This document shows, one piece after another, positions 3,734 through 37,338 of a DNA stretch of 45,804 nt. How positions within the stretch are numbered: the stretch's first letter is position 1; each line of letters begins with the position of its first letter. The notes beneath the pieces are model-generated. The model was not told the DNA's origin and searched no databases. It saw nothing but the letters and a program-made list of their open reading frames with translations. This DNA comes from a virus: the IMG/VR virus record IMGVR_UViG_3300041955_000279, positions 1 through 45,804 of that record; one strand, 5' to 3'. The position numbers and the translations under genes were made by a program.

Positions 3734-5124
3734 TCGGAACGTGCAATCGCGAACGCCTAGCTCCTGCGGTCAAGAACATCCGCGAGACGTGGCTCAAAGA
3801 TTGTGCAATCCCGCACAAGTTCTTCTATGGCCGACTTCCGCAGGGCATGATCGCAATTCCTATGGGTTTCGATGATGAGCTTTACGTCGATGCGCCAGAT
3901 GGTCTTTGGGATGAACTAACCCAAAAGACCCGCGCTGCATTCCAATGGGTTCGAGACAAGGGCTATTCGCACATCTTCAAATGTGACGTCGATACCCTGA
4001 TCCACATGGCGCGGCTGCTCAACAGCGGCTATGAGAAACATGATTACTTTGGCTCAACGCTTGATGTGCCCACAGGATTCCCATTTTGTCACGGCGGCCC
4101 AGGCTACTGGCTCAGCGCAAAAGCTGTGGAGATTCTGGCGGACGCTCCGTTTCCAGCATGGCCGAACATCGAAGACACACTTCAGGATCAGTGGGTCGGC
4201 CGCACGCTGTTCAACGCCGGCATCAAGCCGGTCCACGATGCACGCTTCTCGATGGGCTGGAGCTATGGCCGCAGAGAACCGCAGATCCTCACGACCAATG
4301 ACGTGATATCGTGTCACTTGTCCAAGGGTACGGGAGTCTATGATCCACAGTGGATGCTCGACGCCTACGCCAAAATGCGCGAGGTTCCGCGAGTGACCAC
4401 TTCGAGTTTCAAGCTGCAGTATCCGTGGATCAAGGAGCAAGGTCAGCGCGTGGAAATCGTGCCGAACGATCATCCGACTTCCAAGGTGTTGATCGCGTGC
4501 AATTCATGCTGGAAAGATGTAGCCAACGGCAGCAACGCCGCGATCCGCGATACCTGGGGCGCATCGATGCCCAAGGATTGGGACTTGCGATTCTTTGTTG
4601 GCGATCGCAACTTCTCTGCGGAAGAACAGAAGCGATTGTTTACGCCTGAGTTTATCGGTTCGCCCGGCAGTCTTGGCTCAATGAATATCGAGACGGCCAA
4701 GGAGCCAAAAATTGGCGATCCGTGGTCACTCTGCGATGATGAAGTGATGCTGCATGATTGCCCTGACGGATATTTGGGACTGCCGTGGAAAACAGTCAAG
4801 AGTTTGGAATGGGCGCTGGAGCTTGGCTATGACTACATTTTTCGAATCTTCACGGACACGTACGTTTTCGTGGATCGTTTGTATCGCTCTGGCTTTGAGG
4901 CTTATGATGCCCTCGGCGTGGTTCTTTTCGATTGCCCGCCCTGTCCGGCTCATCCTGATAGCCATCATTTTTGTCCTCTTGGTGGAGATGGGTATTGGAC
5001 TTCTCGTAAGGCGGCTGAAGCAGTGATTTATTACACTGACGAAGAGCTGGCAAATATGACTAAGGAGGAAAACACAGTGCCGAAAAAGCGCGTGCTAATA
5101 CCACGCCCTATTCGGCACTGGTGA
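3712..5124 (+). CDS. Tandem GT31-like glycosyltransferase, part before in-frame UGA
   Basis: This frame encodes two repeats of a GT31-type (beta-1,3-glycosyltransferase/Fringe-like) domain. Repeat 1 (residues about 1-240) has NIRETWL, the metal-binding acidic motif CDVDTL, GGPGYWLS and EDTLQDQWVG. Repeat 2 (from about 258) has AAIRDTWG, the corresponding acidic motif FTDTYVF, and GGDGYWTS. The frame stops at UGA 5122-5124 before the second domain's EDxxVG block, yet that block follows at once in the same frame (next entry). Full length would be 573 residues. These enzymes transfer sugars from nucleotide sugars, matching the upstream epimerase. Either the second domain is truncated or the stop is read through. 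GT31 domains are mainly known from eukaryotes. Confidence 0.82.
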   Translation: MPNPIILIGTCNRERLAPAVKNIRETWLKDCAIPHKFFYGRLPQGMIAIPMGFDDELYVDAPDGLWDELTQKTRAAFQWVRDKGYSHIFKCDVDTLIHMARLLNSGYEKHDYFGSTLDVPTGFPFCHGGPGYWLSAKAVEILADAPFPAWPNIEDTLQDQWVGRTLFNAGIKPVHDARFSMGWSYGRREPQILTTNDVISCHLSKGTGVYDPQWMLDAYAKMREVPRVTTSSFKLQYPWIKEQGQRVEIVPNDHPTSKVLIACNSCWKDVANGSNAAIRDTWGASMPKDWDLRFFVGDRNFSAEEQKRLFTPEFIGSPGSLGSMNIETAKEPKIGDPWSLCDDEVMLHDCPDGYLGLPWKTVKSLEWALELGYDYIFRIFTDTYVFVDRLYRSGFEAYDALGVVLFDCPPCPAHPDSHHFCPLGGDGYWTSRKAAEAVIYYTDEELANMTKEENTVPKKRVLIPRPIRHW

Positions 5125-5433
5125 CAATGCGGGGAAGATACTCATGTCGGATTTGCTTTATCTGAGGCTGGAATCGTTTGCCCGCGAGACACCAAGTTTC
5201 GCTATGTGCAAGCCACCGACGCAATCCGCAATCGCCAGGCACTCACGATTCATCTCAACAGCCGATATTCCAAGTGGGATCCACAGATCATGCGGCAGAC
5301 GCACGCGGAGCAAATTGCAGCACGCGACAGATTTCCCAAGTTCGATGGCACTTGCAAGAAATGTCATGGGCGCAAAATGCGGGTTCATCCGATGGGGCCG
5401 CGCTGCGCTACTTGCGGAACGCTGGTGGGTTAG
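5125..5433 (+). pseudogene. In-frame continuation of the GT31-like gene after UGA, with zinc ribbon
   Basis: The frame stays open for 102 codons after the stop. It starts with QCGEDTHVGFALSEAGI, the EDxxVG motif missing from the second domain. It then gives LTIHLNSRYSKWDPQIM, clearly parallel to SCHLSKGTGVYDPQWM in the first domain. It ends in a CKKC...CATC zinc ribbon. No ribosome site or start lies near the junction, although a short product from ATG 5206 is conceivable. So the gene is either recently broken by one point mutation, or UGA is decoded at some frequency. Confidence 0.7.
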
Positions 5434-6541: not shown

Positions 6542-8196
6542 TCGTGGAATACCTGATCGACTTCGTAGGCAAGCACGGCACGCGCTTTTCTGTCTACGAG
6601 ATCGCCAATAACGAAATCACTCGCTGCCTGTTTCAGCCGCTCCCCAAACAGCTTCTCTATTTCGATGCGGTCGAAGCCTACGTGCTATTCGGTGGAGGCC
6701 GCGGCCCCGGCAAGACGGAAGGAATCTGCTGGGATGCCCTGATCGCGGCATATCTTGTTCCCAAGTCCCGTCAGATCATCTTCCGCAGAACAATGGGCGA
6801 GCTCAAGAGCACAATCGTGGATCGCTTTCGCCAGATGCCCGAAGGTCTGCGCGGCAAGCTGATCGGTGAAATGTCCTACGAGCGCGTCGAGCTGCCCAAT
6901 GGCTCGATTATTCGCTTTGCCTCCGCACGCAGCGAGGAAGATACGCGCAAGATGCTGTCGGGCGAGTTTCTGCGCGTGCATTTCGACGAATGGTCCGAGT
7001 GGCCATATTCGCAATGGAAGTTCATCAGCGGATCGGTGCGGACCACGGCGCAGAAAGATATTCTCGGGCGCCCCGTAGTCGCCCAGGTCAAAGGCGCAAC
7101 CAATCCCGGAGGTATCTGCGGCGACGTGCTCAATCACTTGTTTGGCTGCGATATCGAGAAGTCCTGCCCGATCGGTGAAGATCCCGAAGCTTACGATTCA
7201 TCGCAATACCGATTCATCAAAACGCTGGTGGATGACAACCCTGCATATTCGGCAGATACGCCGGCCGGCGCAGCTTATCGCCGGATGCTGCTTTCGATGC
7301 CTCGCAAGATTCGGGACGCTTGGCTCTATGGCAAATGGTCGGGCTTTGAGGGTCAGTATTTCGATTGCTTCGAGCGCGAGCTGACCGAGATTCCCCATGA
7401 CGTGATCGTTCGCATGATGGCCAAGCAGTATTGGCAACCGATATGGATCGCGTACGATTGGGGCAAGACGCACCACAGCTATGTCACTTGGAACACGTTC
7501 ATCGAATTGCCGATGGAAGCAGGACTGGCCAAGAAGTTCGCAGTCACCTTCCGGGAGCTTCTAATCAAAGGTGTGAGCGAAATAGCGGTGGCCGGGGAAA
7601 TCTGCGCCATGACGCCAGAGAACGAACGCAAGCGCGTGGACATGATCTACGGCGCGCCCGATACCTTTGGCGGCGATCTGCTCAGCCGCGCGCGCCGCAT
7701 GGGCGATGTCTTCACGGTCAACAGCCTTCCGCGCCCGATGCCCGCGTTCAACAAGCGCGTGGATGGCTGGACGCTGATGTACACGCTCCTTGATTCCTAT
7801 GTTCACGGCGAGGCCGGCGAGAATGCGCCGAAGAACACGCTCAAGAACGGCTGGACGAAGTTTTGCTCCGACTGGCTCATCAGCGAGCAATGCCCGAGGC
7901 TCTTTGAGGCTCTTGGCTGGGCGATGGCCAGCAAGAAACCCGGCAAGGATGGCGACGTGGACGATGAAGGCGATTCGCCCAATCTCGATATTCTGGACGG
8001 CGCGCGCTACGGCATTGCCTCGCGAATTCAGCCGGAAGAAAAGCCGTTCAAGGAAATCTTGCGCGAACAGATTAGCGCGTTGCCGGTGGAAGGATCATCG
8101 CGCTATATCCGAGGCTTGCAACTGGCTGCTGAAGAGAAGAAAAGTAGTCCGCCATTTTACTCAACGACTCGAAGGTTCAAAGGGAGGCGACACTAA
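6538..8196 (+). CDS. terL: Terminase large subunit
   Basis: The 552-residue packaging motor has an ATPase domain with Walker A GGGRGPGKT (residues 52-60) and Walker B VHFDEW (about 146-151), then a nuclease domain with the first acidic residue in WIAYDWG and a late acidic motif in ILDGARYG. It pumps DNA into the prohead and cuts the concatemer. The start is taken as TTG 6538 (overlap TTGA with the upstream stop); GTG 6544 is a plausible alternative. Size and motif order are typical. The mode of packaging (headful or site-specific) cannot be read directly. Confidence 0.95.
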   Translation: MIVEYLIDFVGKHGTRFSVYEIANNEITRCLFQPLPKQLLYFDAVEAYVLFGGGRGPGKTEGICWDALIAAYLVPKSRQIIFRRTMGELKSTIVDRFRQMPEGLRGKLIGEMSYERVELPNGSIIRFASARSEEDTRKMLSGEFLRVHFDEWSEWPYSQWKFISGSVRTTAQKDILGRPVVAQVKGATNPGGICGDVLNHLFGCDIEKSCPIGEDPEAYDSSQYRFIKTLVDDNPAYSADTPAGAAYRRMLLSMPRKIRDAWLYGKWSGFEGQYFDCFERELTEIPHDVIVRMMAKQYWQPIWIAYDWGKTHHSYVTWNTFIELPMEAGLAKKFAVTFRELLIKGVSEIAVAGEICAMTPENERKRVDMIYGAPDTFGGDLLSRARRMGDVFTVNSLPRPMPAFNKRVDGWTLMYTLLDSYVHGEAGENAPKNTLKNGWTKFCSDWLISEQCPRLFEALGWAMASKKPGKDGDVDDEGDSPNLDILDGARYGIASRIQPEEKPFKEILREQISALPVEGSSRYIRGLQLAAEEKKSSPPFYSTTRRFKGRRH

Positions 8197-32905: not shown

Positions 32906-33949
32906 ATGCCTGATATTCAGGCACAAACTCCGGATGGAGTAATCCATAGCTTCCCTGATGGGACGCCCGATGAAGTTATCGATAAGGCCATCAAGGCATA
33001 TTCCACCGATGCCACGATAACGGGAATCAAAGCCCCAGCCCAACCCGATACTTCAAAGCCGGAACAGGGGATCGCCGCAGCCGAGCATCCCTCCAATCCG
33101 TTCTCGCGCTACATGACCGAAGCCGAAAACCTGACCGAAGAGGGCAAGAAGGAACATCCCATCGAGAACGTGATAGGCACAGCGTCACGTGGATTAAAAC
33201 AGTTCGGGAATATTGTCGGCACGATGGCACCTCTGCTTATGGGGCCCGGCGGTGGTGTTGCTGGCGCGGGGATGGGGCGAAATCCGGCACCGCCGCAACA
33301 AGCCCAACTTCCTGCAGGGGAGACAATCATCACTCCTCCGCCAGAAATCAAACAGCTTCCTGCAGGGCCAAATCGCATTATCGAAGCGCCAGCGGCACCG
33401 GATGAATCATTCGTGCGCGGCGTGCCTGCTGAAATTGGTGGACCCGGCAAAGCGGCTGGTCCTACAATCGAAACTCCGAAAGAAGCCTACCCTGCACCCG
33501 GACCTAAACCCACTACCGGAAGGATGATTAGCGATCTCGTGAACCAAGCCTATGGAATTGAACCGCTGAAACCAGATGTTCCGATCAAGGAACAAATTCC
33601 GCAAGAACAAGCCGCTCCAGCTGCCGGACCTGCGCCGGATAGCTTACAGGCACGCTATCCAGATAGGGCAGTACGCAGCATGGTCCATGCTAATGGTGAA
33701 AACATCGTCAACGCGGTGGGCAACGATCCGGAAACCATGCGAGCGATCCACGATCTGACGCGCGTGGAATTGAGGCAGGCCCTTGTGAATAGCGGCGAGG
33801 ATATGGGCCAGCAGACGATCTCTAGTTCAAAGTTCGCCGGCGAAGGCTCGATTACTCGGCAGCAGGCGTTTGATCGGCTGCTTCAGAAGGGTTTGTCTCC
33901 GAAGAAGATTGTGGAGTTTGCGAAGAAGATACCCGCCGCAGGGCCATGA
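32906..33949 (+). CDS. Putative internal virion protein with N-terminal DGxxHxFPxGTPxxVID motif
   Basis: The 347-residue protein begins VIHSFPDGTPDEVIDKAIKAY, a short domain often found at the start of phage internal or peptidoglycan-acting proteins. The middle is Pro/Gly/Ala-rich with a hydrophobic glycine stretch (MAPLLMGPGGGVAGAGMG), and a helical C-terminal domain follows. Its last 98 bp overlap the 3' end of the GroES-like gene on the other strand. It is the last plus-strand gene of the structural block. Confidence 0.6.
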   Translation: MPDIQAQTPDGVIHSFPDGTPDEVIDKAIKAYSTDATITGIKAPAQPDTSKPEQGIAAAEHPSNPFSRYMTEAENLTEEGKKEHPIENVIGTASRGLKQFGNIVGTMAPLLMGPGGGVAGAGMGRNPAPPQQAQLPAGETIITPPPEIKQLPAGPNRIIEAPAAPDESFVRGVPAEIGGPGKAAGPTIETPKEAYPAPGPKPTTGRMISDLVNQAYGIEPLKPDVPIKEQIPQEQAAPAAGPAPDSLQARYPDRAVRSMVHANGENIVNAVGNDPETMRAIHDLTRVELRQALVNSGEDMGQQTISSSKFAGEGSITRQQAFDRLLQKGLSPKKIVEFAKKIPAAGP

Positions 33950-34409
33950 GCACATCGTAATCTTTCAAAAGCAAATAGTGCCGCTCGACTCCGTCGCCAT
34001 CAATCAGTGAAATATCAGCGCCATGTGATGCGAATTTGTCGAATAGGATCAGCTTTCCTTTTTCGGTACGCTTGACTTCACTGCCGACGGCGACAACGTA
34101 ACCCAAATCGCTCTTGGCCTTAAGCGAATCCGGCAGCACCAAATTGCTGGAATGTTCGCGCTCAACGCGCTCCACGAGGATGGAATCTCCTACGGGCTCG
34201 CCTTCATAGCCGACTGAAGGTTTGTTAACTGAGCCGGAAGCGAGTAAGTCAGCCTGCTCGCCCATCGCCTGCTTCGAGTCCTCTTTGGGAGGCTCCGGCT
34301 CAGACGTCACGAATGTATCATGATCCCAAATATCGGTTCCTTCCATCTCCTGCGCTGGAGCATTGAAACTGGCGCTTCGGCCTCCACTTGCGAGCTTATC
34401 TCCGCCCAT
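33852..34409 (-). CDS. GroES-like co-chaperonin
   Basis: The 185-residue protein has an N-terminal extension of about 65 residues, a GroES-fold domain (about 70-155) and a disordered Ser/Pro tail. The domain starts VGDSILVERVE, aligns its mobile-loop region with SSNLVLPDS (the Leu-Val-Leu stretch matching the Ile-Val-Leu that docks onto GroEL), then YVVAVGSEV, KLILFDKFASHGADI and a final YDVLMAL, matching the GroES order. It caps the folding chamber. GroES is normally about 97 residues, so the extensions are unusual. It belongs to the minus-strand operon with GroEL; the homing endonuclease gene separates the two. Confidence 0.8.
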   Translation of the reverse strand: MGGDKLASGGRSASFNAPAQEMEGTDIWDHDTFVTSEPEPPKEDSKQAMGEQADLLASGSVNKPSVGYEGEPVGDSILVERVEREHSSNLVLPDSLKAKSDLGYVVAVGSEVKRTEKGKLILFDKFASHGADISLIDGDGVERHYLLLKDYDVLMALRRVSSSQTPQSSSETNPSEAADQTPAAE

Positions 34410-35730
34410 TTGGAAACCTCTTTCCCATACTGATTCGGGCGCACCATTCCAACGATCTTGGTGGCCGTTTTCTACCCTTCAATTTTGATGGACCCAATAT
34501 TCTTCCTTTTAGAGAAGCACTTATCTTCGATTTGATGTCTTCAGTATGCGGGATGCCGAGGCGATATTTATGGGAATTATATAGTTGAGTCCCCACACTT
34601 CCCTTGTATTGGTTCAAAACGTACTCACTGTACGCAGGCGGGATACACTCGGACAGTTCTCGAATGTTCATCCAGTCAATCTGCATCGCATCAAATCCAT
34701 ACTTCTGCGGAAGCACGACACCGACAGGCTTGCCCCGTGTTTCTTTTGGTTTGGAATAGTGTCGTTTTTCCAAAGCTATATCTCGGACTTTGCCCCCGTA
34801 AACACCTTGAGTTTTCGCCGCGTGTCTACAGCCTCCCGGCGAAGCTATCGGAAAGCTGGCCTCAAAGTATCTATGTCGTCGCAATTGGTACCCGTAAGCT
34901 GTTAAATCAAAATGACTTCCGCACAGCATTGTCGCGTTCTTTAACGGAGCACCAAAAACATTCTCTATCACCCAAGGCTTGCCCGACTTTCGCAGCCATC
35001 TACGAACAGGGGCCACCAAATCGGGGTGTGGACGACGATTGGGCATCGTCTTGAGAGCACAGTAATGCTGGCAGGGTGGACTCGCCCAAATGAAATCAAA
35101 ACCCTCTGGCAACACACTCTCCCAATCTCCCAATACAAACGTAAAGGGATAGTGCGGCTGCGGATTTACATCCACACCAAAAATTTCAGCTTTCGGAAAC
35201 GCGCGGTGGATACCTGCTGACGCCCCACCCGCGCAACAAAATAAATCCAGTATTTTCATTCTCTTACATCCTTCCTTTGGGGAGTTAACTATATAATTCC
35301 CATATTTATTGCCTTTGAGGGATTGGCTTATTTTAGCTATTTCCTCCAGCGTGTGCGGCCGTCTTTTCTTGCCTTTTCCGCCTCGCGGTTTGCCATTCTT
35401 TGCAGCTATGCTCAATTTTGCGCGTGTTTCTTCTGAAACTTGGTGACTATTTCCGCCTGTATGGAGATTGTATCCATTTGGTGAAAGTGTTCCTCGTGTC
35501 TCAATCTCTTGAGCTTCCAATCGATTAAGTTCTTGCCGATCTTCAGTCTCATGAAGGATGATACATTCAAAATTGGCGACCCCATATTTCTGAATTGCTT
35601 GTGAAAGAAGATAGCCCTTTCGGGCCATAGAAGATTTGCAATGGTCTTTCCATCGTTGAGCTAGAGTCCTTACTGTCAGCCCGACGTATCCTTTTCCCGT
35701 AATCTTATTGCGTACAAAATAGATCAGCAT
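34396..35730 (-). CDS. GIY-YIG homing endonuclease with inserted DNA cytosine methyltransferase
   Basis: A 444-residue mosaic. Residues 1-95 are a GIY-YIG nuclease (IYFVRNKITGKGYVGLT, then RWKDHC, a catalytic Glu in LEAQEIETRG, and GYNLHTGG). About 98-140 is a NUMOD3-like DNA-binding motif. Residues 158-385 are a full-length short C5-cytosine methyltransferase: LDLFCCAGGASAG (SAM binding), PPCQ (218-221, catalytic Cys), ENV (256-258) and RRHRYF. About 395-444 is another NUMOD3-like motif. The methyltransferase has its own ATG (35259) behind AAGGAAGG and could also be made alone. It starts at the base after the GroEL stop and overlaps the GroES start by 14 bp. The region is A+T-richer than the flanks. 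Confidence 0.85.
   Translation of the reverse strand: MLIYFVRNKITGKGYVGLTVRTLAQRWKDHCKSSMARKGYLLSQAIQKYGVANFECIILHETEDRQELNRLEAQEIETRGTLSPNGYNLHTGGNSHQVSEETRAKLSIAAKNGKPRGGKGKKRRPHTLEEIAKISQSLKGNKYGNYIVNSPKEGCKRMKILDLFCCAGGASAGIHRAFPKAEIFGVDVNPQPHYPFTFVLGDWESVLPEGFDFIWASPPCQHYCALKTMPNRRPHPDLVAPVRRWLRKSGKPWVIENVFGAPLKNATMLCGSHFDLTAYGYQLRRHRYFEASFPIASPGGCRHAAKTQGVYGGKVRDIALEKRHYSKPKETRGKPVGVVLPQKYGFDAMQIDWMNIRELSECIPPAYSEYVLNQYKGSVGTQLYNSHKYRLGIPHTEDIKSKISASLKGRILGPSKLKGRKRPPRSLEWCARISMGKRFPNGRR
34569..34595. repeat. 27-bp inverted repeat, left arm (right arm 35278-35304)
   Basis: The arm starts TATGGGAATTATATAGTT and ends in TCCCCA. Its reverse complement occurs at 35278-35304 with two mismatches in 27 bp. 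The arms bracket the methyltransferase segment almost exactly: the outer one lies between the NUMOD3 motif and the methyltransferase ATG, the other just after the last methyltransferase motif. Confidence 0.9.
35278..35304. repeat. 27-bp inverted repeat, right arm (left arm 34569-34595)
   Basis: Partner of the left arm; 25 of 27 positions pair. On the coding (minus) strand it lies at codons 143-151, just upstream of the methyltransferase ribosome site. In mRNA the arms could form a long stem closing the methyltransferase region. In DNA they could mark a mobile or invertible segment. Confidence 0.9.
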
Positions 35731-37338
35731 CTATCGTCGTCCAGGAAGGCGTGGCTTTGGAGGCGCTTCTAGGCTTTCAATAATGAGCGATTCCGTTAAT
35801 AAGAGGATCCCCGCCACGCTCGCGGCATTCTGCAAGGCGGTGCGGACAACCTTCGTCGGATCGAGTACGCCCGCTTTGACCAAGTCTTCATATGTATCGG
35901 TCAGGGCATTGTAGCCACAATCGAAATTCGGGCAACTGAGGACTGTATCTAGAACTTGTTGATCGTCTTGGCCAGCATTGCTGGCGATGACCCGGAGTGG
36001 CTCTTGCATGGCAGCCATGAGGATATTCATCCCTTCCGATTCAACGCCACTGCCATAGAAGAATTGGATCAATCGTGCCAGCGTCACACCGCCGCCGGGC
36101 ACAACACCCTCTTCCACGGCGCATCGCGTGGCAAACAGGGCATCTTCGATTCGCGCTTTCTTCTCGCTCATCTCGACTTCGGAGGCCGCACCCACTTTGA
36201 TGATGGACACGCCCCCGGTCAGTTTGGCAAGCCGCTCCTGCAAGCGATCCTTTTCGTATTCGCCCTGTTCAAGACTCAATTGTGTGCGAATCCCCTTGAT
36301 CCGCGAGGCCACGGCCATCTTGTTATTCTCGCCCGCAATGATGGTGGTGCCCGATTTGCTGACGATGACTTTCTTGGCGCGGCCAAGGTCACTGATCTTG
36401 ATGTTTTCGGGCTTATCGCCCAGATCTTGCAGGATCGCCCTTCCGCCCGTGAGAGCGGCGATATCGTTCAGCAGTTCCTTGCGAAATGATCCAATCCCCG
36501 GCGCTTTCACCGCGCAGGATTGTAGACGTCCTTGCACGTTATTCACCACGAGCAAAGGAAGGACTTCGCCCTCGACATCTTCCGCGATCACAAACAGCGA
36601 TTTGCCCGACTTGGCGAGCTGGCCGAATAGATCGAGCACGGTTCCCATGCTTCCTAGGCGTTGCTCGCAGCACAGAACATAGCAATCTTCGAGAACCGCT
36701 TCCTGCCGGTCCTGATTGGTGATGAAGTACGGGGAAATGAAGCCGGTGTTCAACTTCATACCCTCGACGGTTTCGAGTGTCGTTTCGAGCGTCTTGGACT
36801 CTTCAACCGTGATAACGCCATCTTTTCCGGCTAGCCGGATCGCGCGAGCAATCAATTCGCCCATGAAAGCATCGTTGTTCGCGGAAATGGTTGCGACCTG
36901 CACGATTGCATCGCCCACGACTGGCTTGGAAACCTTGTCGAGTTCGCCTCCCTTGCGGCAGATGAAATCCACGGCGCGATCAATCCCACGCTTGATGGCC
37001 ACGGAGTTTGATTTGGCGGTGATGGCTTTCAGGCCCTCGCGATAGATGGCCCGCGCCAAAATCGTGCTGGTGGTCGTTCCGTCGCCTGCCTGGTCTGCGG
37101 TTTCCGATGCCGCCTGCTTCACAAGCTGGGCGCCCGCGTCCATTGCCAGATCATCGAAAGAGATATTCTTGGCGACAGTCACGCCGTCGCGCGTCGAGAG
37201 CGGCGTATCGAATTTGTTGAAGATGATGGCATTGCGGCCAGCGGGGCCAAGCGTAGCGGCGACCGCGTTTGTCAAGGCATCGACGCCTTTAAGGATTGCT
37301 TGGCGGGCGTCATCGCCATAGAGAATTGTTTTGGACAT
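35731..37338 (-). CDS. groL: Phage-encoded GroEL chaperonin
   Basis: The 535-residue protein aligns by eye along the whole of GroEL. Key ATPase residues are present: Asp51 in STRDGV, Asp86 in GDGTTT, and the Asp in IEDALFATR. The family signature CAVEEGVVPGGG is intact, and the apical substrate-binding region keeps GFISPYFI and LPLLVVNN. It lacks the Gly-Gly-Met tail of host GroEL and ends APPKPRLPGRR. It should form the folding ring, here with the GroES-like protein from the same operon. It starts 3 bp after the upstream scaffold-like gene, with no obvious ribosome site, implying coupling. A natural client is the capsid protein (inference). Chaperonin genes are rare in phages of this size. 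Confidence 0.95.
   Translation of the reverse strand: MSKTILYGDDARQAILKGVDALTNAVAATLGPAGRNAIIFNKFDTPLSTRDGVTVAKNISFDDLAMDAGAQLVKQAASETADQAGDGTTTSTILARAIYREGLKAITAKSNSVAIKRGIDRAVDFICRKGGELDKVSKPVVGDAIVQVATISANNDAFMGELIARAIRLAGKDGVITVEESKTLETTLETVEGMKLNTGFISPYFITNQDRQEAVLEDCYVLCCEQRLGSMGTVLDLFGQLAKSGKSLFVIAEDVEGEVLPLLVVNNVQGRLQSCAVKAPGIGSFRKELLNDIAALTGGRAILQDLGDKPENIKISDLGRAKKVIVSKSGTTIIAGENNKMAVASRIKGIRTQLSLEQGEYEKDRLQERLAKLTGGVSIIKVGAASEVEMSEKKARIEDALFATRCAVEEGVVPGGGVTLARLIQFFYGSGVESEGMNILMAAMQEPLRVIASNAGQDDQQVLDTVLSCPNFDCGYNALTDTYEDLVKAGVLDPTKVVRTALQNAASVAGILLLTESLIIESLEAPPKPRLPGRR

Follow-up and report, generated by a model that had tools for sequence, protein, structure and literature searches.

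A 730-bp IS1595-type insertion cassette very probably underlies a nuclease-methyltransferase fusion frame at a phage chaperonin locus

How does a complete C5-cytosine DNA methyltransferase come to lie inside a homing endonuclease? The question is raised by the IMG/VR virus record IMGVR_UViG_3300041955_000279, which was analyzed at its full length of 45,804 nt and is referred to here as the window. It contains a single 444-aa ORF (34396-35730, minus strand) set between phage groEL and groES, with the domain order GIY-YIG, NUMOD3, complete C5-methyltransferase and NUMOD3-like tail. The nuclease ATG (35730) is the base right after the groEL stop (35731), and the 3' end of the nuclease gene, stop codon included, shares 14 nt with the beginning of groES (Table 1). 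An initial annotation, made from the sequence alone, had read these four units in one frame and had placed the nuclease start directly at the groEL stop; the ORF with its profile matches and the coordinates bear out both statements. Within the region 33852-37338, groEL is followed by groES, which is the opposite of the usual bacterial order, and groES is N-terminally extended; the order is the same in the related phage L049.

The methyltransferase is exactly bracketed by 37-nt inverted repeats that are 86% complementary (34559-34595 and 35278-35314) and were found in a repeat search after being overlooked in the initial annotation. None of 100 shuffles of the window yielded such a repeat end. 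On the coding strand, the layout is ...AAAGGCA[ATAAATAT]GGGAATTATATAGTTAACTCCCC...methyltransferase...GGGGACTCAACTATATAATTCCC[ATAAATAT]CGCCTCGGC..., in which the bracketed 8 bp form a direct repeat. No transposase match was found in six frames of the window, and the element is thus a non-autonomous derivative rather than a full insertion sequence (IS). All features of a mobile insertion cassette (MIC), namely IS ends, a target duplication, a passenger gene and the lack of a transposase, are present, and the assignment of the methyltransferase to a 730-bp non-autonomous IS1595-type cassette of this kind is strongly supported. The cassette and one copy of the duplication together measure 738 bp, or 246 codons, and both ends are open in the frame used, so that nuclease, methyltransferase and nuclease tail are read as one 444-aa ORF; the earlier claim that the insertion had kept the nuclease frame therefore holds. 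No empty target site was present among the fetched loci and no near-identical phage with an empty site was found, and we therefore infer the insertion from its anatomy. A search against Rfam gave no RNA family in the window, so the insert is not accounted for by a known intron class.

Table 1. Positions of the cassette, the interrupted nuclease gene and the chaperonin neighbors in the window.
Feature	Positions	Strand	Evidence
groEL (chaperonin, 535 aa), upstream neighbor	35731..37338	-	PF00118 E 5e-60, phrog_5725 E 2e-146
5' part of GIY-YIG homing endonuclease gene (GIY-YIG and first NUMOD3, including duplication copy 1)	35302..35730	-	PF01541 E 1e-10, PF07460 E 2e-8, TIGR01453 E 1e-20
8-bp target-site duplication, copy 1 (ATAAATAT, coding strand)	35302..35309	.	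Identical to 34564-34571
Whole 730-bp non-autonomous IS1595-type cassette	34572..35301	-	End repeats and target duplication
Terminal inverted repeat, coding-strand left end, GGGAATTATATAGTTAACTCCC	35280..35301	-	Repeat search, shuffles, family consensus from 152 ends
Ribosome-binding-site-like AAAGGAAGG upstream of methyltransferase ATG	35270..35278	-	Sequence
C5-cytosine DNA methyltransferase passenger (residues 158-385 of fused ORF)	34576..35259	-	phrog_363 E 1.7e-33; M.HaeIII 1dct profile match E 5.5e-8; Foldseek to DNMT1 catalytic domain E 2.5e-7
Terminal inverted repeat, coding-strand right end, GGGAATTATATAGTTGAGTCCC	34572..34593	+	Repeat search, shuffles, family consensus
8-bp target-site duplication, copy 2	34564..34571	.	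Identical to copy 1
3' part of homing endonuclease gene (second NUMOD3-like unit and tail)	34396..34571	-	ORF, weak NUMOD3 match
groES (co-chaperonin, N-terminal extension), downstream neighbor	33852..34409	-	PF00166 E 5e-9

The outer layer is a GIY-YIG homing endonuclease, whose catalytic domain occupies residues 2-88 and whose first NUMOD3 unit occupies residues 124-142 of the ORF; the second, C-terminal NUMOD3-like unit is a weak match (15.5 bits against a Pfam cut-off of 20.4). The GIY-YIG catalytic residues Y4, Y15, G17, R26, E72 and N88 are invariant across the window copy and its relatives. When the nuclease flanks are joined without the insert, they give SLKGNKYRLGIPHTEDIKSKISASLKG, which contains two tandem NUMOD3-like units and aligns with insert-free GIY-YIG/NUMOD3 relatives from L128, L130 and the Enterococcus phages BC611, Entf1 and SE. 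Such insert-free proteins had been proposed in the initial annotation as a check. These free-standing, SegB-like enzymes (such as efb9 of Enterococcus phage BC611) have the same domain and NUMOD3 repeats and are 29-42% identical to the joined flanks but, unlike the window ORF, carry no methyltransferase. The nucleases of L128 and BC611 contain a C-terminal I-HmuI-like NUMOD domain, which is absent from the window copy. In L049, whose groEL is 85% identical, the space between groEL and groES holds an unrelated 68-aa ORF and no nuclease, which agrees with the nuclease, too, having come to this junction as a mobile element. The insert splits the DNA-binding repeats but leaves the catalytic domain in place; the probable consequence is a nuclease that is defective in DNA binding at the least, with homing probably impaired. 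The nuclease part of the predicted model, which was built without homologues, is not of high confidence.

The inner layer is a complete methyltransferase by several measures. Its phrog_363 match covers residues 131-382 of the whole ORF (E 1e-34), and the C5-methyltransferase motifs I, IV (PCQ), VI (ENV), VIII (RxR) and X are present. The landmarks DLFCCAGG, SPPCQ, IENV, RRHRYFE and IPPAYSEYV are all found in the window copy and are mostly conserved in 27 relatives, in agreement with the earlier statement that all main motifs are there. That statement had also given the gene its own start and ribosome site, and an ATG does lie at 35259 with AAGGAAGG upstream. In the predicted structure, most pLDDT values of the core blocks within residues 161-380 lie at 90-98. 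Relatives exist as free-standing genes in the phage collection, which answers the second check proposed in the initial annotation. These orphan phage methyltransferases of phrog_363 resemble the passenger in motifs and size (39-47% identity), but are ordinary free genes rather than cassette-borne ones; no cassette of the window's repeat family was found around the free relatives L004-L048. The terminal repeats, the 8-bp target duplication, the insert-free nucleases and the free methyltransferases all uphold the initial description of an element within an element.

The ends of the cassette recur in many other contigs. IMG/VR and the genomes of bacteria and archaea were scanned for the repeat, convergent ends were paired in all fetched loci, and elements were chosen by their ends and a perfect 8-bp duplication, not by content. 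Of 136 candidate end pairs, 82 had a perfect 8-bp duplication, corresponding to at least 76 distinct elements, mostly in uncultured viral contigs. Among the matches listed, 152 ends gave a 22-bp consensus close to GGGAATTATATASWTRACTCCC, and the duplications of the listed elements are 83% A+T in loci of 56% G+C. The window's 22-bp ends are common to L066, L078, L116 and others; L116, a 101-kb viral contig, holds one autonomous element and two small ones. One strict pattern matched 55 viral loci and 11 genome contigs, which are raw counts with a base total (257 billion) given for the genome collection alone, and the pattern read backwards had no match in nine records that all hold the true pattern. 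One passenger is shared by two elements, L057 and L072 (79% amino-acid identity), whose sites and duplications differ, and L110 is a 697-bp cassette at another site with a C5-methyltransferase of the same phrog as that of the window (37% identical). The passenger ATG lies 42 nt from the end of the window element, and a similarly short leader is found in most sister cassettes. By crude gene calls, the upstream neighbor is codirectional for 15 of 21 passengers, which is suggestive. A test of whether insertions generally interrupt genes was negative, in that junction-spanning ORFs were no commoner after removal of 8 bp than after removal of 6, 7, 9 or 10 bp.

Further observations concern the ends themselves. 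The stop codon of a passenger ORF is often supplied by the terminal repeat, into which the ORF extends (with protein endings like ELTI*, ESTI* and ELCI*), for example in L110:3172-3822, L057:4923-5384, L122:10772-11047 and others, and a TATAAT reads outward inside the repeat. The near-identical contigs L054-L056 and L058-L060 have one good repeat end at the same site, with a weak, duplication-free partner 1191 bp away, and possibly hold a decayed element.

The transposase of the family belongs to IS1595 (NF033547 E 4e-61; PF12762, DDE_Tnp_IS1595, E 4e-47). Among the 76 elements listed, 30 encode a full transposase (~305 aa), 3 a partial one and 43 none, the latter being mostly one-gene cassettes among these matches. 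Transposase remnants lie inside the elements of L112, L178 and L213, the pattern predicted for cassettes that form by deletion. In 50,697 phage records the transposase lineage is close to absent, with three hits that are all below 40% identity, and it is less than 60% identical to any plasmid copy, with 47.5% for the best among the matches listed. Two autonomous IS1595 elements (L066:4082-5992 and L136:867-2766) also contain a PAPS-reductase-like passenger.

About a quarter of the elements among the matches listed carry a recognized DNA-modification gene (20 of 76, or 19 of 75 excluding the window). C5 methyltransferases are found in the window, L110, L170 and L205; N6/N4 methyltransferases in L061, L100, L145, L160, L173, L179, L201, L207, L208 and L213; a Dam-type enzyme in L154; phrog_757 methyltransferases in L063 and L197; and Mom-like proteins in L061, L149 and L201. 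L061 and L201 have two modification-gene elements each. In L061, a Deltaproteobacteria MAG contig, the two cassettes (4551-5248 and 6572-7094) share the variant repeat GGGAATTATTGATTTGAGT, with the N6/N4 methyltransferase in one and the Mom-like gene in the other. Only 7 of 852 flanking ORFs of the same loci (0.8%) match profiles built from the modification passengers, an enrichment of passengers over flanks (Fisher p ~1e-16) whose baseline is imperfect in that the profiles derive from those very passengers and genes were called crudely, with leave-one-out detection of 17 of 19. The methyltransferases of the window and L110 each have closer kin among free phage genes than in the other cassette, and both are distant from those of L170 and L205; this suggests that the C5-methyltransferases were captured separately.

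The remaining passengers are mostly small proteins without assigned function. In one cassette (L146:9791-10945), a QueD-like gene (TIGR03367 E 9e-12) is accompanied by an ORF of phrog_15826; this could be a 7-deazaguanine-type DNA modification cassette. The cassettes of L057, L072, L075 and L083 encode proteins of 127-186 aa, with no Pfam or PHROG match for L057 and L075 and no PHROG match for L083; these passengers are candidates for new phage accessory functions.

For the window, we regard it as very probable that a 730-bp IS1595 mobile insertion cassette inserted between the NUMOD3 repeats of a homing-endonuclease gene. A free-standing GIY-YIG homing-endonuclease gene would first have stood between phage groEL and groES, and a cassette with one C5-methyltransferase gene and its own ribosome site would then have entered between the two NUMOD3 repeats, duplicating 8 bp. 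Since none is encoded in the window, the transposase would have acted in trans, from another phage or from the host. The passenger would be transcribed from outside, here by the groEL-groES operon, because its ATG is so close to the element end that there is no room for a full promoter. The methyltransferase may be made from its own ATG with a nuclease-derived NUMOD3 tail of ~59 residues, or as the long fusion. By analogy with orphan phage methyltransferases, it would modify phage DNA against host restriction, and such protection is the likeliest benefit of the gene.

The open frame also admits the compact restriction-modification or self-protecting homing system suggested in the initial annotation, which would be a nuclease-methyltransferase chain retained by selection. 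The frame does run through both ends, with the GIY-YIG residues and the methyltransferase motifs intact, but the fused order appears in no relative in IMG/VR scans and 50,697 phage records, and none of the records in the phage collection matches the fused protein over 80% of its length. The nuclease relatives lack the methyltransferase, and the linker regions have low confidence in the structure model. Among the matches listed, the window alone of 76 cassettes is stop-free through both ends, a frequency compatible with chance. With only this one open case, selection is not needed to explain the fusion; its reading frame looks like luck, and we consider a selected chain very unlikely and the original suggestion unsupported. 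Less probable still, and in our view hardly credible, is that the inverted repeats are a hairpin or recombination site, such as that of an invertible methyltransferase switch, instead of transposon ends. Invertible modules, too, have inverted repeats around a methyltransferase gene, but inversion requires no 8-bp direct duplication outside the repeats. It also leaves out of account at least 76 elements with differing contents, common ends and their own duplications, at least 30 of which contain a DDE transposase.

A different question, which concerns function only and is compatible with the cassette model, is whether the modification genes serve the transposon, with methylation regulating or stabilizing the element itself rather than the phage. 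Their recurrence across the family would fit such a role, but a single end sequence common to the family is an improbable target for different chemistries (C5, N6/N4 and Mom), and many cassettes hold unrelated small phage genes; we judge such a role unlikely.

Neither mobile insertion cassettes nor passenger-bearing IS1595 elements are new as a kind. MICs have been described for qnrD and qnrS2 plasmids and for Bacillus cereus. Like the window element, they have IS ends around passenger genes in place of a transposase; the window cassette differs in its phage replicon, its methyltransferase passenger and its IS1595-family ends. Integron gene cassettes work in a similar way, as small mobile units that are exchanged and that each bring one apparently promoterless gene with its ribosome site, but they use other recombination machinery, and the window element is not a member. 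IS1595-family elements with passengers have 25-bp repeats and 8-bp duplications (PMC5704250). The IS1595-family ISs and transporter ISs (tIS), such as MTnSag1/tISSag10 and tISCpe8, have an IS1595 DDE transposase, 22-25-bp repeats, 8-bp duplications and passengers in common with the window lineage. The window element differs in having no transposase. The named examples move on conjugative elements in Firmicutes (PMC5704250), whereas most members of the window lineage come from uncultured viral contigs, and DNA-modification genes are abundant in it. The literature searched, which was mainly open-access, contained no report of IS1595 cassettes or MICs in phages. It also gave no earlier account of a mainly viral, modification-rich IS1595 lineage, with the proviso that specialist IS reviews outside it may record passenger methyltransferases. 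A mainly viral IS1595 lineage with one-gene cassettes enriched in DNA-modification genes thus appears to be new.

More broadly, we tentatively propose, at somewhat less than even odds, that an IS1595 lineage living mainly in phages shuttles single, apparently promoterless genes, among which DNA-modification genes of unrelated chemistry are overrepresented; phages would then gain restriction protection by transposition and not by recombination alone. The cassette model accounts for the odd nuclease-methyltransferase fusion, and the 22-bp repeat with its 8-bp duplication is a searchable tag for single-gene cassettes, many without assigned function. The patchy scatter of DNA-modification genes among phages is usually ascribed to recombination; a transposon family would be a concrete vehicle for it, and through these cassettes phages may exchange their defenses against bacterial restriction.
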